A program made the position numbers and the translations under genes. From a virus, in IMG/VR virus record IMGVR_UViG_3300046460_000177, positions 1-32,702 of that record: a stretch of DNA of 32,702 nt, one strand, 5' to 3'. The first letter of the stretch is position 1; each line of letters opens with the position of its first letter. Below are positions 9,930 to 28,905 of this stretch, one piece after another. The notes under the pieces are model-generated. The model did not search any database and was not told the origin of the DNA. It worked only from the letters and a program-made list of their open reading frames with translations.

Positions 9930-9967
9930 GCGTGGCCCCGGGCCTGGGGGATGGCCCGGGGCCACGC
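9930..9967 (-). terminator. Strong hairpin upstream of the replication genes
   Basis: A perfect 15-base inverted repeat, GCGTGGCCCCGGGCC (9930-9944) and its complement (9953-9967), has an 8-base loop. It lies 14 bases after the stop of the 9982-10413 gene and before the zinc-protein/primase-polymerase pair. It is probably a partial or regulated terminator, because no gene-free promoter region of any size follows it. Confidence 0.75.
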
Positions 9968-17786: not shown

Positions 17787-20700
17787 CTACAGGGGGACGA
17801 TGCACGGGGTGGCCAGCCGCACGCCGGTCCCTGCGGTCTGGGCCTTGACGATGCCGTTGACGGACCGGGTGGCCGTCACGGTCTGCGGATTGACCACGAT
17901 GAAGTTGGCGTAACGGATGGCTGCGGTGGCGCCATTGGTGTTGCCGGTCACCCGGATCGACCTGGTGCCGAACGAGTTGGCCGCCGTGATCGAGGTGTCG
18001 GTGGCGGCGATGTGCCATACGTCCGGCTCGGCCTGCGTGGCGGGCCAGGCCTTCACCCGCAGGGCACTGCCGGTGGCCTGGAAGCGGAGCCGGATGAAGG
18101 TGCCGGCGGTGTGGGTGTAGCCGGGCACGGTGTACGTCCCGAGGTCCGTGCCGACGCCCGCGACCAACTTCCGCAGGACGACTGTGGCGGTGTTGGTCAC
18201 GGTGAACGCGACGCGCGCCATGTACATGTTGTCGGAGTCGAGCATGCGCGCGGTGGGCGCCGCGTACAGGCTGTCGCCGGTGGCCGTCGCCGAGGTGCTG
18301 ACGTCGCAGTACATGTCGAAGTCGGCGTGCACGGCCGGGATGGAGACGCGGCGGCTGACGTCGACGGTGGCCAGCAGCTGGGTTCCGTAGCCGGAGCCGA
18401 CGCTGAAGTCCGACGCCGAGCCGCCGACGACTGTCCAGGCCGGGCCCGAGTTGGGCGACCCCCAGCCGTTCGACACGGTCCTGCTGAAGAGGTCGTTCAG
18501 CCACGGGGTGATCGCCGTGGCGGTGACGACTTCGCCGCCCAGGCGGACGTCGAAGGGGAAGGCTGCGGGCCGGATCGCGGTGGTGATCCACCGCTGCTGG
18601 GCGGTGGTGAGGAAGTGCAGCGCGGTGGCCGTGCTGGTGGCGGCCGCGGCGAGCACGGTGCCCGCGGTGTCGGCCCGCCCGCGGGTGGTGTCGCCGACGA
18701 CTCCGACGGTCCACGGTGCGGCCGGCGTGCATGTGGCGTACCAGTCCCACCCGTACTGGTCGAAGGATTCGCTGTAGCCCTGCACGATCAGGTCGACGTC
18801 GCCCGGCGGCACGTCGGCGGGCAGGTCGGTGAGGCGGATGACGTCGCCCTGGTCGACGGCCATGACGGCGTCGGCCAGGTGCGGGGCGGCGGCCAGGTCG
18901 ACGTGCACGACCGGGTAGCGGGGGGCGTCCCAGGTGCCGAGGTGCAGCAGCCATCCGGCGATCGGCCCGGCCTGCTCGTCGGTGGCGAGGGACCGCTGCA
19001 CGCTGGTGTCGTAGCGGCCGATGCCGTCGGGCGGTGCCTGCACGGACAGGGGGCCGTCCTCGAGGACCACGCGCGCCGCACTGCCGTCGATGCGGGTGAC
19101 CGTGACGTCGTTGTTGACGTCGGCGTCATCGGCGATGGGCTCCAGCGGCGGGGCGATCTCGCCGTCCGTGGTGTAGCTGAGGGTCAGCGCGGGCGTCTGG
19201 TTGTACAGGGTGGTGCGGCCGCGGTACCGCAGGGCCGGGCGGGACCGGTGCTCCATGAGAATGCCGCCGTCGGAGTCGCCGCACTCCCCGAACAGTTCGA
19301 GCAGGGTGAGCATGCGCTGCGCGCCCATCTCCTCCTGGTCGGCGATGATTCCGCGCACGCTGACGGGCACGTTTTCCTCACTGCCCAGGCGCACCAGGCG
19401 CTGCCCTGCGTACTCCGGCGTCCACGCGTCCAGGGCGCTGGTGTAGGCGGACGTCGTGGTGGTGCCGAACACGGCGATGTGCCCCATGGCCATGCCGTCC
19501 AGCTCGGCGGAGAACCCCCCGGGCGGCGAGCCGACGTTGGTGACGCGGCCCGCGGTGCCCGCGACGGTGTTGGTGTAGGAGCCGGCGCTGCCGTGGATGT
19601 CCGACCACACGACCGTGTACGTGACGGTGCCGCCCGACTCGGAGACGCGGAAGTGGGAGGCCACCCACGTGCCGAAGATGTTGTTGCTGGTGCCGATGCC
19701 CTGGTCGACAACCGTGTTGCCGTCGACGTCGATCCCGAAGATCTTGGACTGGCTGTCCTTGGACTGGATGCGCCACTCGCGCACGGTCCCGCTCGTGTTG
19801 ATCCGCATGATCGTGCGCAGGGTGGTGGGCGGCGGGGTGTCCAGTCGGTAGACCCATGCCACCTGCCAGCCGGTCGTCGCTCCGGCCGGGGCGGGCACGG
19901 TGCCCTGCATGACGGCGGACGGCCCGGTGCCAGCCGCCCACACGGGCAGCGCGCCGGATGAGATCAGGTCGCTGTTGGCCGCCCAGTTGACGCCGGTCAG
20001 CGTGAGCGGTGCGACGCCGGGGATAGGCGAGTAGGCGCGGGTGGCCTGGGCGCCCTCCTCGAGCGGCCAGTAGGCGAGCGGGCTGTAGGCAGGGATGCGG
20101 CGGCGCAGCGGGGACTGGAGCGCGGCGGCGCCCTGCCCGAGGCGGCGCAGGATCCCGGCCGCCTCGACCGGTACCCAGCGGTCTTGTCCGGAGACGTCCC
20201 ACCGAGGCGGCCAGGTGGAGATCTCCCCGACCATCCGGTCCGAGCGCTTGCGCACCGTGGCCGTGCCGTTGACGGTCCACACCCGACCGACGGAGTCGGT
20301 GAAGCCGGTGGCGCCGTGCGCCAGGGGGCGAAAGTCGGCGTCGGCGACGAGGGTGCCGTCGATGCCGGACCGGACCTGGAAGCGCGTTGCGCTCCCGACG
20401 AACGGCGTCCTGGGCGGGGTGGTCGAGGCGTCGCTCGGCCCGATGCGCAGCGCACTGGTGGTCGACTGGAGACTGGTCGTGCCGGCGCCGACGATATCCG
20501 TGAAGAGCTGGGTCCACGGGCCGGTGATGGTGTCGCCCTGGTAGAAGCGCACCGTGTGCCCGGCCGCGCCGTTGTCGACGTCGAGGGTGACGCGCAGGAC
20601 CGCGCCGCCGTAGCGTTCGATGCTGATGTTCGTGGAGTGCACGAGGGCGCCGGAGTCGAGCCAGATGAAGGTGATGTTGCCGTCGAAGTAGCGCAGGAAC

Positions 20701-21167
20701 CAGGAGCGGTCGGCGTCGACGGTGCCCCACTTGCCGAGGATGCCGAGGTTCCCGGCGGTCAGCGTCATGTCGGCGTCGAACTCGGCGCGGATGTCGAGGT
20801 CGCCGGTGATGTTCAGTGCCGCGACGTGCGGGGTGGAGACGTAGCCGGCCGGGTCACCGTCCAGCTCGAGGTGAGATGTGCTCGCGGGCAGATGCACCCG
20901 GACCGGGGTGTTGCGGCCGATGTAGCCGTACAGGTCCGACAGGGGGTTGCCGTCGCTGTAGCGGCCGGAGACGGCCGGGTTGACCTTGCTGCGCCCGTTG
21001 TTGAGCGTGAGCTTCAGCTTGCCCGGGTCGGTGCGCGAGCCCTCGTCGGGGCGACCGCGGGCGATGGTCATCAGGTCGCGGGTGAAGACGTCGGCGGTGA
21101 TGTTCTGCCAGACGCCGTTGATCTTCAGGTCGGCCTGGATGTCGAGCGGGGTCTGCGGGAACGCCAC
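17787..21167 (-). CDS. Large tail-tip protein with several laminin G-like modules
   Basis: This 1126-residue protein starts with a tail-associated domain (about 1-110; DLKINGVWQNITADV, SDLYGYIGRNTPV), as in distal tail or baseplate hub proteins. A LamG/concanavalin-like beta sandwich (about 115-290) follows, a second such module (about 365-560; SPLAYWPLEEG), then a tail-hub-like central part (about 570-870), and a C-terminal LamG-like domain (about 885-1100; DLFSRTVSNGWGS). These carbohydrate-type folds suggest host-surface binding at the tip. It follows the tape measure gene by 15 bases with AGGAGG before the GTG. It probably carries both hub and receptor functions in this small phage. Confidence 0.85.
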   Translation of the reverse strand: MAFPQTPLDIQADLKINGVWQNITADVFTRDLMTIARGRPDEGSRTDPGKLKLTLNNGRSKVNPAVSGRYSDGNPLSDLYGYIGRNTPVRVHLPASTSHLELDGDPAGYVSTPHVAALNITGDLDIRAEFDADMTLTAGNLGILGKWGTVDADRSWFLRYFDGNITFIWLDSGALVHSTNISIERYGGAVLRVTLDVDNGAAGHTVRFYQGDTITGPWTQLFTDIVGAGTTSLQSTTSALRIGPSDASTTPPRTPFVGSATRFQVRSGIDGTLVADADFRPLAHGATGFTDSVGRVWTVNGTATVRKRSDRMVGEISTWPPRWDVSGQDRWVPVEAAGILRRLGQGAAALQSPLRRRIPAYSPLAYWPLEEGAQATRAYSPIPGVAPLTLTGVNWAANSDLISSGALPVWAAGTGPSAVMQGTVPAPAGATTGWQVAWVYRLDTPPPTTLRTIMRINTSGTVREWRIQSKDSQSKIFGIDVDGNTVVDQGIGTSNNIFGTWVASHFRVSESGGTVTYTVVWSDIHGSAGSYTNTVAGTAGRVTNVGSPPGGFSAELDGMAMGHIAVFGTTTTSAYTSALDAWTPEYAGQRLVRLGSEENVPVSVRGIIADQEEMGAQRMLTLLELFGECGDSDGGILMEHRSRPALRYRGRTTLYNQTPALTLSYTTDGEIAPPLEPIADDADVNNDVTVTRIDGSAARVVLEDGPLSVQAPPDGIGRYDTSVQRSLATDEQAGPIAGWLLHLGTWDAPRYPVVHVDLAAAPHLADAVMAVDQGDVIRLTDLPADVPPGDVDLIVQGYSESFDQYGWDWYATCTPAAPWTVGVVGDTTRGRADTAGTVLAAAATSTATALHFLTTAQQRWITTAIRPAAFPFDVRLGGEVVTATAITPWLNDLFSRTVSNGWGSPNSGPAWTVVGGSASDFSVGSGYGTQLLATVDVSRRVSIPAVHADFDMYCDVSTSATATGDSLYAAPTARMLDSDNMYMARVAFTVTNTATVVLRKLVAGVGTDLGTYTVPGYTHTAGTFIRLRFQATGSALRVKAWPATQAEPDVWHIAATDTSITAANSFGTRSIRVTGNTNGATAAIRYANFIVVNPQTVTATRSVNGIVKAQTAGTGVRLATPCIVPL

Positions 21168-21182
21168 GGCGTTGCCTCCTTT

Positions 21183-23513
21183 CTAGCGGCGCCGGTCGAA
21201 GGCGTTCCCTGTGGAGCCCCCGCCGTCGATACGGACGATCTTCCGGAACAGCTTCTTCAGGTCCTCGTCCGCGCCGCGCACGTCGACGACGACGCGGGTG
21301 ACACCACCGCCCGCGGCCGCGCCGAGGACCGGCGCCATGCCAGCCGTGAGCGGGGCAGGGTGGACGGACTGCGGGGCCACGCCCGGGAGGCTGTCGAGGA
21401 CGGCCTGAAGGGCGGGAATCTGGGCAACGATGCCGGTCCGGAATCCGTCGACCAGGGCCTCGCCGGAGTACGACGTGTAGCCGCGCCCGGAGAACGGCCC
21501 CTCCTTGGCCGGCGAGAACGGGAAGAAGTCGCGGGCCGCGGAGACCACGCTGCTGGCCGCGTCCCGCACGCTCCCGATCCGCGCCTTGATGCCGTTGATG
21601 AACCCGGAGATCAGAGCGGATCCCGAGTTGTAGAGCAGGTGGCCGAGGTTGCCGAGCGCTGAGGTGATCCTGCCGGGCAGGCCTCTCACCCAGTTGACCA
21701 TCTCGGTGGCCTTGTTCACCGTGGCCGTCTTGATGCTGGACCAGTGCTTGATGATCAGGCCCAAGAGGGTCCAGTTGAGGAAGGCGTTGTACAGCTTCCC
21801 CGGGATTCCCTTCACCCAGTTGGTGATGGCGTTCCACCAGGACACGGCGGTGGCCTTGATGCTGGACCAGTGGCTGATCAGCAGGCCGATCAGGGTGAAG
21901 TTCATGAAGGCGCTGATCATCATGTCCTTCGCCCAGATCAGCTTGCCTACGATCCAGTTCCAGGCGGCCAGGGTCCAGGCCTTGATCTGGTCCCAGTACA
22001 CGATGATCAGCGTGACCAGGCCGGCCACGGCCAGGATGATCCAGCCGATCGGGCCCATGGCGATCAGCCACTGTGCGGCCATGACCGCGGCCCAGGCGAC
22101 CGCGCGCGCGGCCATGAGCGTGAACTGCACGGCCGCCGTCACGCCGGCCCGGAGGACGGCCAGGATCCACGTTCCGATGGACACCAGCGCCGACCCGGTC
22201 CAGGCGGCTGCGGTCGTCACGGCGGAAGCCACGGCCCCGGCAGCGATGCGCGCATAGGCGGCCAGGCCCATGACGTTCATCCGAACCCAGGTCGCCATGA
22301 CGCCCCATGCGGAAGAACTGATGATGGCGTTGGCCCCGGCGACCACGGAAGAGACGGCCGCGTAGGTCGTCATGGCGGCCTTCACCACGAGGACCGTGCC
22401 GGCAAGCCCGGCGAGGGTGTAGGCCAGCGGCTCGAACACGGCCTGGTTGTCCATGGCGAAAGCGACGAACCCGCCGGTGATCTCGGTGAGCTGGCTCATG
22501 GCCTTGCGGTGGAACGTCTCCAGCGCTGTCCCCGCGTTGTTGTTGAGGGCGTCGCCGCTGCGCTTGGCCGCGCCGCTGAAGTCGTCCATCGACCCGGACG
22601 CGCCCTTCAGGCCAGCGAGGAAGCCGGGGATGTCCTGGACGTTCATGTCCTCGAGCGGCGTGCCGAACAGGCTGATGGCGGCGTTGGCCTGGGTCGCGGG
22701 GTCCTTGATGCCGAGCAGGCCGTCGATGATCTGCTGGGTGGCGCCCTGGGCTGTCGATCCGCCGGCCAAGATCTTGTTCGCCATGGTCTGGGCATCCAGG
22801 CCGATGGAGTCGTAGGCGGCCACCGACTTCGCGGACATGTCCGTCGACAGGACCGTGAACTCTTTGACGGCGTCGCCCGCCTTGTCGATGCCGATCGCGC
22901 CCTTCGAGGATGCGTCGACCAGCAGCGCGAACGCCTGCTCGCCGGAGTAGCCGAGGGTGCGGAAGAAGCTGGAGTACTCATCCGAGGCGTCGAGGACGTC
23001 CTCGCGCAGTGAGGCCGGCACCCGCTGCGACGCGGCCGTGATCAGGTCGAACGCCTGGCTCGCGTCGGTGGCGAGGCCCGAGTTGATGAGCGTGCCCACG
23101 CTCTGCACCGCCCGGTCGACCTCGATGTCGAAGGTCGACGCGAAGTTCAGGGCGCTCTCGGTTGCGCCTTCCAGGGCGGCGCTCGACGCGGTGGACATGC
23201 CGTCGATGGACGACATGACCGCGCCGACGGCGGTGTTGACCTCCTCCATCGACTGGCCGTAGGCGTTGGCGTACAGGTCACCGGCCACGCTGCCGATGCG
23301 GGCGGACTCCTCCTCGGTGAGTCCCAGCTGCGCGGCCAGCTTGCTGTTCGCCTGGTCGATGCTGATGCTCTGCACCAGGCTCGCCCCGAGGGAGACGCCG
23401 GCCATGGCGCCGATCCCGGTGGCCACCTGGTCGAACCGCTCGCGCGCCGAGGACAGGCCCTGCTCGGTGTTGTCCCGTGCGACGAGGTTGAACACCAGCG
23501 ACGTATCGCTCAC
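21183..23513 (-). CDS. Tail tape measure protein
   Basis: This 776-residue protein begins with the conserved pattern SLVFNLVARDNTEQGL, followed by a long helical part (about 30-330) with the TMP-like GIDKAGDAVKEFTVLSTDMS. Hydrophobic segments (about 370-500) and tandem units with TLIGLLISHWSSIK and TLLGLIIKHWSSIK (around 540-600) follow, then a C-terminal domain rich in Gly/Pro. It sets tail length; at about 1.5 angstroms per residue it would give roughly 115 nm. The GTG start has AAGGGGG six bases upstream, lying in the 3' arm of the hairpin at 23516-23541. It follows the tail assembly chaperone genes as in most siphophages. Confidence 0.95.
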   Translation of the reverse strand: MSDTSLVFNLVARDNTEQGLSSARERFDQVATGIGAMAGVSLGASLVQSISIDQANSKLAAQLGLTEEESARIGSVAGDLYANAYGQSMEEVNTAVGAVMSSIDGMSTASSAALEGATESALNFASTFDIEVDRAVQSVGTLINSGLATDASQAFDLITAASQRVPASLREDVLDASDEYSSFFRTLGYSGEQAFALLVDASSKGAIGIDKAGDAVKEFTVLSTDMSAKSVAAYDSIGLDAQTMANKILAGGSTAQGATQQIIDGLLGIKDPATQANAAISLFGTPLEDMNVQDIPGFLAGLKGASGSMDDFSGAAKRSGDALNNNAGTALETFHRKAMSQLTEITGGFVAFAMDNQAVFEPLAYTLAGLAGTVLVVKAAMTTYAAVSSVVAGANAIISSSAWGVMATWVRMNVMGLAAYARIAAGAVASAVTTAAAWTGSALVSIGTWILAVLRAGVTAAVQFTLMAARAVAWAAVMAAQWLIAMGPIGWIILAVAGLVTLIIVYWDQIKAWTLAAWNWIVGKLIWAKDMMISAFMNFTLIGLLISHWSSIKATAVSWWNAITNWVKGIPGKLYNAFLNWTLLGLIIKHWSSIKTATVNKATEMVNWVRGLPGRITSALGNLGHLLYNSGSALISGFINGIKARIGSVRDAASSVVSAARDFFPFSPAKEGPFSGRGYTSYSGEALVDGFRTGIVAQIPALQAVLDSLPGVAPQSVHPAPLTAGMAPVLGAAAGGGVTRVVVDVRGADEDLKKLFRKIVRIDGGGSTGNAFDRRR

Positions 23514-23515
23514 TG

Positions 23516-23541
23516 GACGCCCCCTTGGTCAAGGGGGCGTC
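23516..23541 (-). promoter_or_regulatory. Hairpin between chaperone stop and tape measure start
   Basis: GACGCCCCCTTG and its complement CAAGGGGGCGTC form a perfect 12-base inverted repeat around two bases. The 5' arm (on the minus strand) includes the last two bases of the chaperone stop codon. The 3' arm contains AAGGGGG, the only plausible ribosome binding site for the tape measure GTG at 23513. The hairpin could therefore hide that site until a ribosome finishing the chaperone opens it. A transcription terminator is the alternative, but it would cut off the essential tape measure gene. Confidence 0.7.
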
Positions 23542-24102
23542 AGCGGCCCCTCTTCAGTTGTTCGTGCGCCTTGGTCTGGGCTTCCTCGTAGGCGTCCAGC
23601 CAGCCGAGATAGGCGTCCGTCTCCTCGACGGTGAAGGTGTCCCAGTCGCGGGCCTTGATCCCGAGCAGGCGCGCGGCGTCGCCCAGCCGCTTCAGACGGC
23701 GACTGGCGGCTGGGCTTTTCCCTCTTCCGCCGGGTCCTCGAATGCCTCGGCGATCTGCTCGTCGATGCGGGCCAGGATCATGGCGCGCTGGTCTGCCGGG
23801 GCGCCGTCGGCGGCCGCCTCGCGCAGCTGCTCCAGCTCGCCCTTGGAGTACGCCAGCTCCAGCTCGTCCCAGGCGAAGTCGACGTCGTCGAACTTCAGCG
23901 GCGGGTTGGTCCGCTTGAGGTACGTGTAGAGCAGGGCGCGCCTGCACAGGCTGCTGCCCTCCACGACCTTCTTGGTGAAGTCTGACCAGGTGGAGCCGGT
24001 GAGGCGCTCGATGTTCTCTCGTTCCGCGCTCATCAGCTTGCGCGGGTTGTAGGGCCAGCGCTGCGGGTCCTCGCTGCCCTCGGGCTTGTAGACCAGGTAC
24101 AC
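23540..24102 (-). CDS. Tail assembly chaperone, frameshifted long form (GT-type)
   Basis: The upstream frame (24102 to 23716) continues after a -1 shift at GGGAAAA (23716-23722) into a second frame ending at 23540. The joined product is about 187 residues: 129 from the first frame, then SPAASRRLKRLGDAARLLG and 39 more. The extension (RDWDTFTVEETDAYLGW, then KAHEQLKRGR) is helical. This G/GT arrangement is conserved in long-tailed phages, where the fusion binds tube and tape measure subunits during tail assembly and is absent from the mature tail. The downstream frame lacks a start of its own with a binding site. Confidence 0.88.
23692..24102 (-). CDS. Tail assembly chaperone, short form (G-type)
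   Basis: Without frameshifting, this 136-residue protein is made. It starts at GTG 24102 (GAGGAGACAGAC upstream) as MYLVYKPEGSEDP, is mainly helical (NPRKLMSAERENIERLTG, DVDFAWDELELAYSKGELEQ, ARIDEQIAEAFED) and ends KAQPPVAV. Size, helix content and place between tube and tape measure genes match the G protein of the pair. It is needed in excess over the frameshifted form for tail assembly. Confidence 0.88.
   Translation of the reverse strand: MYLVYKPEGSEDPQRWPYNPRKLMSAERENIERLTGSTWSDFTKKVVEGSSLCRRALLYTYLKRTNPPLKFDDVDFAWDELELAYSKGELEQLREAAADGAPADQRAMILARIDEQIAEAFEDPAEEGKAQPPVAV
23716..23722 (-). other. -1 programmed frameshift site GGGAAAA
   Basis: On the minus strand the heptamer reads G GGA AAA in the starting frame, exactly the XXXYYYZ form for tandem -1 slippage to GGG AAA. 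The preceding codons (GAA GAG) and following GCC keep both frames open, and the -1 frame runs on to 23540 whereas the zero frame stops at 23692. Confidence 0.9.
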
Positions 24103-24112
24103 GTCTGTCTCC

Positions 24113-24625
24113 TCATCCGGCCCGCGCTGCGAGGCGCCGGGCCATGTTCTCCATGGCCGCCTCGACGGCCTCCTTGTAGACGCCCTCGCGCCCTTCGAAG
24201 GACCGGTCGAACCAGTCGGTCTTGCCGTGCTGCTGCGCCCACACCTCGCGGTTGCCGAACACGGGGTGGCGCCAGCCGCCCGCGCGGTTCATGCGCTTCG
24301 GCGCGTTGGGGAAGTTGCGGACGTTCTTCGTCTTGAAGGCCTTGACCCGGGCGCCGGACCAGCGGCCGCCCAGCTTCACCTCGGGACGGATCTTGCGTGC
24401 GATCGAGGACCGCAGAGCGGGGGCTGTGGGCAGGCCTGCCGAGGACACCGCCATGATCGAGGACTTCGCCTCAGCCGCCCCGGGCTTCAGCGCCTCGCGC
24501 ATGTTCGCGGCGAGTTCCTTGCGCAGCTGCTTGCCGTCCTCCTCCGCGCGGATCGCGCGGGTGAGTGCGGCGAGACCCTGGTGGGTCTCGACGCCCAGGG
24601 AGAACGGCGGGCCCCCGCTGGCCAT
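24113..24625 (-). CDS. HK97 gp10-like head-tail connector or tail completion protein
   Basis: This 170-residue protein has a helical N-terminal half (GLAALTRAIRAEEDGKQLRK, MREALKPGAAEAKSS), a central basic part (VKLGGRWSGARVKAFKTKN), and the conserved-looking GGWRHPVFGNREVWAQQ segment followed by WFDRSFEGREGVYKEAVE. The RHPVFG/W pattern is a hallmark of the HK97 gp10 family, whose members join head and tail. The ATG overlaps the upstream stop as TGATG. In this genome it comes after the tube-like genes, which is a later position than usual. Confidence 0.82.
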   Translation of the reverse strand: MASGGPPFSLGVETHQGLAALTRAIRAEEDGKQLRKELAANMREALKPGAAEAKSSIMAVSSAGLPTAPALRSSIARKIRPEVKLGGRWSGARVKAFKTKNVRNFPNAPKRMNRAGGWRHPVFGNREVWAQQHGKTDWFDRSFEGREGVYKEAVEAAMENMARRLAARAG

Positions 24626-25035
24626 CAGACCGTTGCCCGCGTCACCGCGCCGCTGGTCGGGAAGGAGACACCCACCGTGGCCTCGTCACCGACGGACCCT
24701 TCGATGGGATTCCACCCCTTGATCAGGATCGACCCGGTGTACTTCGGATTGGACGTACCGACCGCGGCCTGGTCGCCGCGCACCTCGAAGGCGACGACCG
24801 TTCCGAGCAGCGGCCACATGATGGAGTCCAGCTGGGATGCGGCGAAGTCCTGGAGGAACTCCACCGACAACTCCGCGGACTTCAGCCCACCGAGGACTTC
24901 CTTCCAGCCGGCGGACGAGTACGTGGTGACGTCCTTGTCCTCGACCTCGACCGACAGTTCGGCCTTCTTCGTGTAGGCGCTCAGAGTGGTTCCGTTGATG
25001 GACAGGTACTGGGCGAGCAGGACCATCTTGGCCAT
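24625..25035 (-). CDS. Tail tube-like protein, second copy
   Basis: This 136-residue protein matches the product of 25105-25842 over its N-terminal half: VELSxExEDKDxTxYxSAGW followed by xxxGGLxSAE. Here the text is KKAELSVEVEDKDVTTYSSAGW. The C-terminal half (FEVRGDQAAVGTSNPKYTG, then EATVGVSFPTSG) is beta-rich and lacks the long insert of the first copy. It is a compact tube-type fold. Start ATG 25035 has an AAGGGGG site; an upstream in-frame ATG at 25059 is less likely. It may be the main tube subunit, with the longer protein as the alternative. Confidence 0.75.
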   Translation of the reverse strand: MAKMVLLAQYLSINGTTLSAYTKKAELSVEVEDKDVTTYSSAGWKEVLGGLKSAELSVEFLQDFAASQLDSIMWPLLGTVVAFEVRGDQAAVGTSNPKYTGSILIKGWNPIEGSVGDEATVGVSFPTSGAVTRATV

Positions 25036-25104
25036 GACGCGGGCCCCCTTCCAGGGCATGCTGACGACCCCGGTGTGGGCCGGGTTGGGAGGTGGTGCAG
25101 GTGG

Positions 25105-25842
25105 CTACCGAATGCCGAGCGTGGCGGCGAACAGGAACGAGGGCGTGGTGCCGGAGACCGTCCAGGCGATCCGCCACCAGGCGTCCGTGATCGCGGTCCC
25201 GTCGGTGCGCAGGGCCTGCCCGCCAGCGGCCGTAGCCGCGGCGAAGGTGAGCCGGGTGGTGGGCGCCGCGAAGGTGTTGTCCGGGGCCGACTCGACGCGG
25301 GCCGTGATGCTCGGGGTGGTGCCGGTCGCGGACAGCACGTGGAGCGCGGCGTACATGCGCTTCCCCGTGATGACGGCTCCCACGTTCAGGCCGGTGCCCG
25401 TGCCGGTGGAGGTGCGGGCGGTACCAGGCGGATGGGCGAACTGACCGCGCACCAGGGGCCAGCTGCTCTTGATGGAGCCGGACCAGGGGGCGACCTCGCC
25501 GACCGCGTCGAACAGCGTGTACGAGGACCGCAGCGCGCTGGTGAAGTACGCCAAGTCACCGACGCTGGCCGAGTTGTTGGCGCTGATGGACCAGGGCCCG
25601 ACGCCTCCCAGCTGGGACCAGCTGGAGTCGTCGACCTTGGTGGGGTCGCCCGCCTCCCACTGCCCCTCTGCGGAGATCTCGGCGGAGCCGAGTCCGCCGA
25701 TGCACTCGTTCCATCCGGCCGATGCGTAGTTGGTGGTGTCCTTGTCCTCGATCTCGGCGGACAGCTCGACCTTGTTGGACTGGCTGGTGAGGTCGACGCC
25801 CAGGGCGAACGTGCGGACGTTGGTCAGGATCGTCTTGCTCAC
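25105..25842 (-). CDS. Major tail tube-like protein, longer copy
   Basis: This 245-residue protein has an N-terminal tail-tube motif region (about 1-60; KVELSAEIEDKDTTNYASAGW, then IGGLGSAEIS), as in actinophage major tail proteins, followed by a Ser/Thr/Ala-rich beta domain (about 100-245; TGKRMYAALHVLSATGTTPS, AWWRIAWTVSGTTP). GTG 25842 overlaps the upstream stop as GTGA. Its paralogue is encoded directly after it. Which of the two forms most of the tube is not clear from sequence; the extra beta domain here could decorate the tube surface. Confidence 0.75.
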   Translation of the reverse strand: MSKTILTNVRTFALGVDLTSQSNKVELSAEIEDKDTTNYASAGWNECIGGLGSAEISAEGQWEAGDPTKVDDSSWSQLGGVGPWSISANNSASVGDLAYFTSALRSSYTLFDAVGEVAPWSGSIKSSWPLVRGQFAHPPGTARTSTGTGTGLNVGAVITGKRMYAALHVLSATGTTPSITARVESAPDNTFAAPTTRLTFAAATAAGGQALRTDGTAITDAWWRIAWTVSGTTPSFLFAATLGIR

Positions 25843-26039
25843 GTCGCCTCGCCCTCCGGTTCGGCCGTCTTGCGGCGGCGGCCGCGCGGCTCCTCGGCGG
25901 TGACCCGTTCAGCGACGCCGGACGCGACCAGGTGCGCGGCCTCAGCGGTCGGCAGCTCGGCGTCCTCGCCCTTGGGCGGCCACGGCTCGCCGTTGCGGGT
26001 GGCGCCCTCGGGCATCTCGACCAGCATGCGGATCTTCAT
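25839..26039 (-). CDS. 66-residue late protein
   Basis: This protein starts MKIRMLVEMPEGATRNGEPW, a pattern frequent in small proteins encoded between neck and tube genes of actinophages, and ends in a highly charged tail (RRRKTAEPEGEAT). It includes AEAAHLVASGVAERV, a short helix-turn stretch. It is coupled to both neighbours (TGATG before, GTGA after). Probably a structural or assembly helper. No function known. Confidence 0.72.
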   Translation of the reverse strand: MKIRMLVEMPEGATRNGEPWPPKGEDAELPTAEAAHLVASGVAERVTAEEPRGRRRKTAEPEGEAT

Positions 26040-26485
26040 CAGCTCCCCTCTCCGATGACCTTGATCATCAGTTCGGCGCCGACGTAGGTCGCGCCGGCGT
26101 GCTCGTACCAGCGGTATCCCTGCACGCGCATCACGTGCAGGTCGTGCGCGAGACCGCCCAGGGCGTACTCCCCGGGCGCACCGCGGGCGGCCTCGATCGC
26201 CTGCTTGAGGGAGGCGGGACCGGAGCCGGACAGCATGGCGTCGAGGATCTGCTGGGCGGCCTTGTCGTCACCCCGCCCGACGAGGACGCGGCTGGTGAAG
26301 ATGAGTTCGTCCAGGCCCCGGGCCATGACCTTGTCGAAGGTCTGCTCGTACTCGGCGACGAAGAAGTGCGGAGCGATGACCGCGTCCGGCACGTAGCCGG
26401 AGCAGGTGAGCTTGGGCAGGCCGGCCGGGAGGACGACCGCGCGGGCCGCATCGGCGAGCGCCTCGCGCACGGCGGAGATCTGCAT
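26039..26485 (-). CDS. Tail terminator or neck-type protein
   Basis: This 148-residue protein has an N-terminal helix (MQISAVREALADAARAV), a beta-rich core with YVPDAVIAPHFFVAEYEQTF, ELIFTSRVLVGRGDDKAAQQI, and a closing VMRVQGYRWYEHAGATYVGAELMIKV. The alternation of a helix and antiparallel strands ending in GAELxIKV is that of tail terminator proteins, which cap the tube and join it to the neck. It sits between the adaptor and tube genes, as expected. GGAG precedes the ATG. Alternative: another neck component. Confidence 0.72.
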   Translation of the reverse strand: MQISAVREALADAARAVVLPAGLPKLTCSGYVPDAVIAPHFFVAEYEQTFDKVMARGLDELIFTSRVLVGRGDDKAAQQILDAMLSGSGPASLKQAIEAARGAPGEYALGGLAHDLHVMRVQGYRWYEHAGATYVGAELMIKVIGEGS

Positions 26486-26495
26486 GGGCCGCTCC

Positions 26496-27089
26496 TCAGA
26501 ATCCCGGGATGATGTACGGCTCGATCAGGTTCCAGACGTCCGGGTCCCGGCGGCTGAGGTTGCGCACGCCCCACTCGGCCGAGCCGATGATCCCCTCGGG
26601 GCTGTCCTTCCGCTTGTACAGGCGCGACGCCAGGATCAGCGCGGCCTCGTGAATGTCGTCCGGTACGGCTGGCCAGCCGAACCGTGCGGTTACCCGGAGG
26701 CGCGTTGTGACGGTGCCCCAGGTACCGAGCACTCGCAGCAGACCGGTGATCGGCTTGCCCTCGGTGAGGGCGTTGTCCGGGCTTGTCTCGTAGTCCGTGA
26801 CGGCAGACCACGACGAGCCGGAGCCGGTCTCTACGACGAGGCCGGTCTCGCTGCCGATGTCGTCGACCAGGAACAGGTCGCCGTCGGACTCGCAGACGAT
26901 GCGACCGCGCGGGTTGAACGTCCGTGCCACCGGGGCGGGGTCGAGCCAGAACCGGCGGCCGGTCGTCTTGTCGATGCTGCGCGACGCGGACGCCCGGGCC
27001 CGGTTCAGGTCCCCGTCCCGGGAGTCGTCGTCCGGCTCGATACCGAACTGGCTCTTCAGCTCTTCCAGGGTGACGTACTCGTTGGCCAC
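26496..27089 (-). CDS. Head-tail adaptor (HK97 gp6-like)
   Basis: This 197-residue protein begins VANEYVTLEELKSQFGI, continues DLNRARASASRSIDKTTGRRF, and ends with helical IHEAALILASRLYKRKDSPEG followed by DPDVWNLIEPY. The opening LEELKxxF, the SASxxIDxxTGRxF helix and the late AALxLASRLYKRxDSPEG pattern are characteristic of the gp6-like adaptor family that forms a ring under the portal. GTG 27089 lies one base beyond the upstream stop. The gene follows the capsid gene and a 72-residue protein gene, the standard place. Confidence 0.85.
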   Translation of the reverse strand: MANEYVTLEELKSQFGIEPDDDSRDGDLNRARASASRSIDKTTGRRFWLDPAPVARTFNPRGRIVCESDGDLFLVDDIGSETGLVVETGSGSSWSAVTDYETSPDNALTEGKPITGLLRVLGTWGTVTTRLRVTARFGWPAVPDDIHEAALILASRLYKRKDSPEGIIGSAEWGVRNLSRRDPDVWNLIEPYIIPGF

Positions 27090-27338: not shown

Positions 27339-27380
27339 CCGCCGGGCCCGCCCCGGATGAGGTGAGGGCGGGCCCGGCGG
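27339..27380 (-). terminator. Strong hairpin after the major capsid gene
   Basis: A perfect 15-base inverted repeat, CCGCCGGGCCCGCCC (27339-27353) with its complement (27366-27380), has a 12-base loop. It begins eight bases after the capsid stop. It may reduce transcription into the tail genes, helping capsid protein to be made in excess, and is too strong to be chance. Confidence 0.78.
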
Positions 27381-27388
27381 AGTCGGGA

Positions 27389-28780
27389 TCAGACGCCGGT
27401 GAACGTGGGCGTCACCAGGCCGGTGCCCGCGATCTTGCGGGCCTGGGCGTACCGGGCGTGCGTGTACGCGAAGTAGCCGTACACGACCAGGAGCACGCCG
27501 AGGCTGGCCGCCTTCGTCTGCTCCGCCCGGATGAACATCGGGGCGGACGGGTCCTCCCACAGGTGGCACTCGGTGCGGTCCACGAGGTAGATCTCGTCCT
27601 CGTTGGTGCCCGCGCCGAGGTTGGTCGCGATGTTGTTGTCGACGACGACCGGCGTGCCGTTGGGCAGGACGCCGCGGATGCCGCGGCCGTAGGCCTCGGC
27701 GTAGTTCGTGCCCAGGGTCTGGGTGACGATGCCGGGCTGGGTGATGAGCGGCCACGTGGCGCCCATCGCGTTCTGCATCCAGTACCAGCGCCGCGAGTGC
27801 ATGACGGCCAGGTTGTCGCCCGAGGCCATGTCGAGCATGGCGGACTCGATGCCGGCCAGCCCTTCGAGAACCTTCGGGTACAGCTCGGCCGCGGTCGGCG
27901 TGCCGTCGGTGTAGGCGACGGTGGTGGCCACGTTGGTCAGGCCGTTGGTCGCCTGGTTCAGGATCGTGTTGTCCAGGCGGGTCGCGTACCGGCGGAACAG
28001 GTCGTCGAGGACGACGGCCTCCACACCGGCGCCGCGCTCGATCGCCTGCCGGGAGAGCGTCTGCTGCCCGGCGTTCGTCTGCACGTTGAACGTCAGGAGC
28101 GTGTCGTCGATGTCCTGCTCGGTGACGGCCGAGTTCTCCGACGCCTGGAGCCCGGTGTCGGTGGACGTGGTGATCCGGGACAGGTTGACGGTCATGCCCG
28201 TCGGGGGCAGGTCGTGCCGTGTACAGGCGTCCGCGAACGGGCGCTTGGCGGCCGCAGCCGGGGCGTACATGTCGGTCAGGTACTGCGGCACGACGAGGCC
28301 GGTGAACGCGGCGGTGCCGGCCGCGCGCACCAGCTGGTCGCCGCGCTCGACGCGCTCTTCCTGCATGTGCCGGGCGAGGCGGGCCTGGGCGTCGTAGTCG
28401 CCCATGAACGCGGCCGCCACGTCGCGCTCGAACATCGCGCCGCGCCGGTCCTCGTCGGGCCGGTACGTCCGCTCGTCCTGCCCGACCCGGTGCACGCGGT
28501 CGTAGGCCGGGGCCCGGTTCGCGGCCGGGACGGTGCGGGCCTGGAGCGTTGCGAGTTCGTCCTCGCGGACCTGCTCCGCCTCGAGGCCGGCGAGCGCCTC
28601 CTGGCGGCGGGTGACCTCGGCGTCCGCGGTGTCGCGCAGGGCGACCTGCGCGGTGACCGCGTCCTCGGTCAGGTTCTCGTCGGAGCGCAGCGCCATCAGC
28701 GCGTCCTGCTCCCTCTGTCGGGTGGCGATCGCCGTGTCCAGCGCGGTGCGCGCCTGGGCGATCAGCTCGGCGAGAGTCAT
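27389..28780 (-). CDS. Major capsid protein with N-terminal scaffold-like segment
   Basis: This 463-residue protein is HK97-like. The first ~105 residues (MTLAELIAQARTALDTAIAT, REDELATLQAR) form a charged helical segment like the delta domain that acts as internal scaffold and is removed by the prohead protease. The body has SGDNLAVMHSRRWYWMQNAM, GTNYAEAYGRGIRGVLPNG and PVVVDNNIATNLGAG, typical of the fold. ATG 28780 follows GAGAGAGGACC; a frame extending to 28846 overlaps a hairpin and is not used. The gene is preceded by the protease gene and followed by a strong hairpin. Confidence 0.93.
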   Translation of the reverse strand: MTLAELIAQARTALDTAIATRQREQDALMALRSDENLTEDAVTAQVALRDTADAEVTRRQEALAGLEAEQVREDELATLQARTVPAANRAPAYDRVHRVGQDERTYRPDEDRRGAMFERDVAAAFMGDYDAQARLARHMQEERVERGDQLVRAAGTAAFTGLVVPQYLTDMYAPAAAAKRPFADACTRHDLPPTGMTVNLSRITTSTDTGLQASENSAVTEQDIDDTLLTFNVQTNAGQQTLSRQAIERGAGVEAVVLDDLFRRYATRLDNTILNQATNGLTNVATTVAYTDGTPTAAELYPKVLEGLAGIESAMLDMASGDNLAVMHSRRWYWMQNAMGATWPLITQPGIVTQTLGTNYAEAYGRGIRGVLPNGTPVVVDNNIATNLGAGTNEDEIYLVDRTECHLWEDPSAPMFIRAEQTKAASLGVLLVVYGYFAYTHARYAQARKIAGTGLVTPTFTGV

Positions 28781-28833
28781 CTCGTCGGTCCTCTCTCTCG
28801 TGATTTCCAGGGCGCCCAGGTCCAGACAGACGG

Positions 28834-28905
28834 CCACCCGAGGCATGGCGCCGGGTGGTCTCGTGCGTAGAGAGCGCAGGGCAGTTGCTCCCGCCGGGCG
28901 GCGGG
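28834..28905 (-). terminator. Two hairpins between the protease and capsid genes
   Basis: CCACCCG/CGGGTGG (28834-28840 and 28852-28858; 11-base loop) and CCCGCC/GGCGGG (28890-28895 and 28900-28905; 4-base loop) fill most of the 137-base gap. The second lies about a dozen bases after the protease stop. They may stabilise the capsid message or attenuate read-through. A separate capsid promoter in this gap is possible but not recognised. Confidence 0.5.

Follow-up and report, generated by a model that had tools for sequence, protein, structure and literature searches.

Frameshift-driven translation was once proposed for the lysis gene of phage MS2 and was later replaced by a termination-based model. 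Today the MS2 coat–lysis pair stands with Escherichia coli rpmI–rplT and f1 VII–IX as an example of coupling by unfolding, where a structure hides the downstream start and is opened by upstream ribosomes that arrive at a given stop codon; in rpmI–rplT this coupling operates at a spacing of +52 nt, comparable to that found here (PMC12548453). In lambda and most long-tailed phages, two forms of the tail assembly chaperone, G and GT, arise from one slip site located between the tail tube and tape-measure genes. Both lambda forms, gpG and gpGT (G:GT ratio of 30:1), bind the tape-measure protein (TMP; PMC5009743). The literature on long-tailed phages yielded no described regulation by which the small number of tape-measure copies would be matched to that of the chaperones coating them, and in one report ‘coupling’ only loosely denotes the overlap at the frameshift (PMC9394477). 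The locus analysed here resembles lambda in its two predicted chaperone forms and differs from it in the hiding of the tape-measure Shine–Dalgarno sequence (SD), since the SD of lambda H, a gene that starts inside T, is accessible (opening energy 4.2 kcal/mol). It shares the general layout of the three unfolding pairs, but its hairpin starts within the upstream stop codon, and the ribosome that opens it would be one that had undergone programmed −1 frameshifting. The mechanism class is thus already known; a link between frameshifting and tape-measure translation is unreported in the literature searched (few subscription papers covered), as a preliminary description of this DNA had supposed.

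The window, i.e. the whole stretch analysed, is the 32.7 kb (32,702 nt) IMG/VR virus record IMGVR_UViG_3300046460_000177, with its late genes on the minus strand. G, encoding a tail assembly chaperone of 136 aa, lies at 23692–24102 (minus strand; PHROG 17335 tail protein, E = 1.6e-20) and has 36 viral and 27 genomic relatives. Near its end, the slippery heptamer GGGAAAA for −1 frameshifting (23716–23722, minus strand) is in the phase X XXY YYZ. After the slip, the −1 frame forms the T extension (23540–23721, minus strand; stop TGA at 23542–23540) and, both in the window and in most relatives, stays open for ∼50 codons past the end of G. The arrangement is that of a G/GT frameshift, with two overlapping frames and a slippery site between the tail tube and tape-measure genes. 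The TMP gene (21183–23513, minus strand; 776 aa) matches tail length tape-measure families PHROG 305, 28 and 1272 with E down to 1.1e-36, and starts with GTG at 23511–23513 (minus strand); its N-terminus, SDTSLVFNL, is kept in relatives. Upstream, two adjoining genes at 24625–25059 and 25105–25842 each have a match among the major tail protein families (PHROG 4574 and 9522), which suggests from sequence a duplicated tail tube gene.

Relatives were gathered with G and then with an alignment of G proteins, giving 110 loci in which the T stop could be read, all of which carry the identical GGGAAAA, and 85 distinct T–TMP junctions. Among the bacterial-genome relatives of G, 26 of the 27 loci are in Streptomyces and one is in Frankia; isolate phages contain no relative of the window's G protein at E 1e-3.

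The gap of 26 nt between the T stop and the TMP start is occupied by a hairpin, located ∼150 nt downstream of the G stop. Its core (23516–23541, minus strand) reads GACGCCCCCTTG-AC-CAAGGGGGCGTC from 23541 to 23516. As claimed previously, the inverted repeat 23516–23527/23530–23541 is perfect (12 nt, 100% complementary, 2 nt between the arms), the 5′ arm contains the G and A of the T stop TGA, and the binding site AAGGGGG is in the 3′ arm (23520–23526, minus strand). As RNA, the core forms 11 bp closed by a GACC tetraloop. The preliminary description is therefore correct and slightly understated: the helix reaches the TMP start codon. In the extended form (about 23511–23545, minus strand; 15 bp, −25.9 kcal/mol), CAGUG is paired with the stop and the last T codon, CGC, which buries the start codon as well. 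The SD itself is strong (anti-SD duplex −9.7 kcal/mol, spacer of 6 nt to GTG), with an opening energy of 14.2 kcal/mol that decreases to 4.2–5.7 kcal/mol with a modelled ribosome at the T stop. By chance, 11-bp stems are expected at ∼0.15 per shuffled window, and stems of 12 bp or longer were absent from 20 shuffles; the 71-nt fold of the junction has z = −2.57. Because other long hairpins exist elsewhere in the window, it is conservation and position, rather than length, that constitute the evidence. The exact sequence of the hairpin was absent from a scan of viral contigs, and Rfam gave no match near a curated threshold. A fold of the plus strand was dropped, since the genes lie on the opposite strand.

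Hiding of the TMP SD is common to most of the relatives. In the 85 junctions, the median opening energy is 11.2 kcal/mol versus 5.6 kcal/mol at 504 other gene starts of the same loci; among equally strong SDs, the values are 12.3 and 6.6 kcal/mol (p = 9e-21). Two types of junction are found. In class U, the SD pairs with upstream sequence (52/85 junctions, among them 44 with a gap of at least 15 nt, as in the window). In class D, its partner lies downstream, for the most part within TMP codons 3 to 8 (33/85), as in L081 with GAGGGAGGUGA...CACCUCCCUC. The preliminary description had named, as evidence that would tell against its proposal, relatives that match in other respects and lack the hairpin. 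On this point the outcome is mixed: about 40% of the junctions are devoid of the hairpin, most of these hide the SD differently, and ∼12 of the 85 are weakly structured and hide it strongly in neither way.

Several observations indicate that the pairing itself is selected. When the gap bases of class-U junctions are shuffled, the opening cost drops from 12.6 to 7.7 kcal/mol, and the local fold at the T stop in this class has a median of −24.3 kcal/mol versus −8 to −16 kcal/mol at the other late stops tested. Since the hairpins, aligned with MAFFT, contained too many gaps for pairs to be counted, an arm-swap permutation, in which every chimera is refolded, and counts of pairs taken outward along the helix were used instead. 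Exchange of arms between phages, in which each hairpin receives the 3′ arm of another, costs 3.4 kcal/mol (native −23.0, swapped −19.6, sd 0.51), and none of 20 000 permutations reached the native mean (p < 5e-5; 25 hairpins <90% alike). In the outer helix, the outward counts reveal differing standard pairs at equal positions among phages, with p-values that are optimistic because the register was set on native pairs only. The compensatory changes that had been suggested as a check are thus present, and the arms co-vary. Moreover, G·U outnumber A·C oppositions in the helices of relatives (36 versus 15, both treated alike, p = 0.002), indicating that sense-strand RNA folds, rather than DNA. In junctions with short gaps (≤12 nt), pairing of the SD with TMP codons reaches 8.65 versus 7.02 from synonymous codons (p = 0.001, or 0.02 minus one clade), the test including all such junctions regardless of their fold; an earlier test in class D, on junctions chosen by fold (p = 1.7e-5), was biased. 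In long-gap junctions, synonymous TMP codons do not favour pairing with the SD (p = 0.67). Collectively, this bears out the claim that the ribosome binding site of TMP is hidden, and the hidden SD is very probably a conserved RNA element, under selection as structure.

On the TMP tree, class U needs at least seven changes forced by well-supported branches. The two hiding solutions have therefore replaced each other several times, as if related phages served one regulatory aim with RNA structures that differ and are interchangeable. Within TMP codons 2–6, the DTSL motif is directly preceded by AGY in 37 of 47 class-U junctions, as opposed to TCN in 25 of 26 for class D; AGC at this place allows AGCGAUACGUCGCU to form a small hairpin with a UACG loop. 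The raw counts link junction class strongly with the Ser2 codon, which is AGC for class U and TCN for class D, but on the tree 2–5 of seven independent pairs conform to this link and none contradict it, which is not significant. In L071 and L099/L142, two otherwise dissimilar TMP genes share an in-frame TAG at TMP codon 7 (GAC ACC TCG CTT TAG CTC GTC TTC), directly following a GAGGUG...CACCUC hairpin; a recombined 5′ end common to both, decay or recoding may be the cause.

In the 44 class-U junctions with long gaps, the helix starts −12 to +7 nt from the first base of the T stop. The bases that pair with the SD are found at median +6 to +12 from this base in class U, and at or before +15 in 40 of the 44 junctions. 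A ribosome with a stop codon in its A site covers roughly the stretch that holds these bases. When this footprint is blocked in the model, the opening energy falls from 12.3 to 5.2–6.0 kcal/mol, within the range of ordinary starts. In four loci (L086, L088, L094 and L095), the T stop is shifted upstream and a longer helix still starts 2–4 nt past the new stop. In short-gap junctions, the SD is in, or adjoins, the last codons of T. Two of the hallmarks of coupling by unfolding are found, namely a downstream SD and start in a stable structure, and a structure within reach of the upstream ribosome. For the earlier claim that ribosomes at the T stop open the hairpin, it is the placement that is borne out, by computation: the bases hiding the SD are within the cover of the terminating ribosome.

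In this context, it is tempting to propose that most ribosomes would end at the G stop and leave the hairpin closed. A rare ribosome would slip by −1 at GGGAAAA and read T through to its stop. With this stop in the A site, it would cover the 5′ arm and free the strong SD, from which TMP would be translated by a fresh or a re-initiating ribosome, so that TMP output would be tied to the production of GT. Fresh initiation after opening is the likelier route at 26 nt because the gene pairs tested in E. coli and Haloferax re-initiate poorly over 20 nt, with a steep drop by this distance (PMC10666635). Against opening, a structure of 4–6 kcal/mol is left even with the ribosome at the stop. On balance, a function in which the hairpin hiding the TMP SD and start is opened by T-terminating, and hence frameshifted, ribosomes is given a probability of roughly 0.55. 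From the geometry, we infer that ribosomes ending T would drive TMP translation and that the amounts of the proteins would be matched. If this holds, a frameshift-licensed start would set the amounts of both GT and TMP from one event, and a change in the slip site alone would alter TMP output.

The most serious alternative, rather unlikely and still the best of the competing explanations, is that the hairpin acts only as a constant brake on TMP initiation, limiting TMP to few copies compared with G and tail tube protein, with no special role for ribosomes finishing T. Few TMP copies are needed per tail, and what is conserved is the hiding, not the exact structure. A second lineage of Streptomyces phages (Raleigh, Alderaan, Tubberson and viral relatives) also argues in this direction, since its TMP SD is hidden by a longer hairpin located 16–19 nt past the T stop. 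The outer stem of this hairpin is compensated in seven loci (L129, L130, L136, L144 and L146–L148), with CGCCGGAU/AUCCGGCG versus CACGGCC/GGCCGUG; in L145, L149 and L150, the SD seems paired with TMP codons instead. As the Raleigh-type hairpin lies beyond the edge of a terminating ribosome, direct opening is not expected, and a plain throttle may suffice and be favoured in this lineage. For the window and its closer relatives, two observations weigh against a permanent brake. A weak SD would achieve the same more simply, yet the SDs are strong (median −10.3 in the relatives), as if meant for opening; strong SDs together with strong hiding therefore resemble a switch rather than a weak start. 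Furthermore, in loci with a shifted T stop, the helix has remained next to it.

The opening of the hairpin by ribosomes ending T also has to be weighed against the opposite role, that of an insulator blocking re-initiation at TMP by ribosomes that leave T. Ribosome termination structures, i.e. stable hairpins directly after a stop codon within an operon, are described as such insulators; they are common at gaps of at least 25 nt, and hairpins just past stop codons lowered downstream expression in a synthetic operon (PMC7518266). The hairpin of the window resembles them in position and stability: it stands at the stop in a gap of 26 nt, and the class-U median of −24.3 kcal/mol is well within the range of these structures (−6 kcal/mol or lower, with gaps ≥25 nt). 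It differs from them in that its 3′ arm is the SD of the next gene, for which an insulator has no need, and in that other structures hide the same site in relatives; the hiding by TMP codons in class D would be left unexplained, and other late stops are devoid of a comparable structure. Insulation is for these reasons improbable.

A transcription terminator or attenuator lowering the amount of TMP mRNA is less probable still. The hairpin is GC-rich and intergenic, and HK97 has an annotated putative terminator ahead of its tape-measure gene; however, the T-run of an intrinsic terminator follows the hairpin on neither strand, and scans for terminators (range 20500–26500) and promoters gave nothing. 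The 3′ arm being the SD, and the helices that many relatives form with TMP codons being unable to terminate, also argue against this role. Finally, a DNA palindrome acting as a protein site or in recombination, to which the perfect 12-nt repeat might point, has next to no credibility given the excess of G·U over A·C, expected only for sense-strand RNA, and a position fixed to the stop and SD.

Apart from opening by the ribosome itself, the end of T may contribute a competing fold. GGGGC in its last codons (23546–23550, minus strand) is complementary to GCCCC of the 5′ arm, and pairing of the two could free the SD, in a weaker structure; the layout of three strands (T end, 5′ arm and 3′ arm) is similar to that of attenuators. 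Among the 44 class-U junctions, 40 have GGGG or GGGC within the final 15 nt of T, and the other four have it just past the stop. The pairing of the T end with the 5′ arm shows no co-variation by arm swap (native −10.8, swapped −11.1, i.e. ∼−11 kcal/mol), and GGGGC may be a remnant of the SD found at this position in class D. Tentatively, with odds somewhat short of even, a broader picture can be drawn for the siphophages of Streptomyces: one rare −1 slip in G would determine how much GT is made and also license TMP translation, so that the doses of three tail-assembly proteins would depend on a single frameshift, while interchangeable hairpins would keep the SD hidden and GGGGC might act as an attenuator-like competitor for the 5′ arm.

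Further long hairpins lie elsewhere in the window. On the late strand, a hairpin of 15 bp with a 12-nt loop (27339–27380) lies ∼9 nt past the stop of the gene at 27389–28846 and is a possible attenuator. Outside the late operon, perfect 15-bp hairpins occur at 9930–9967 and 1000–1038; the latter follows the end of a plus-strand ORF (348–989) and may be a terminator.
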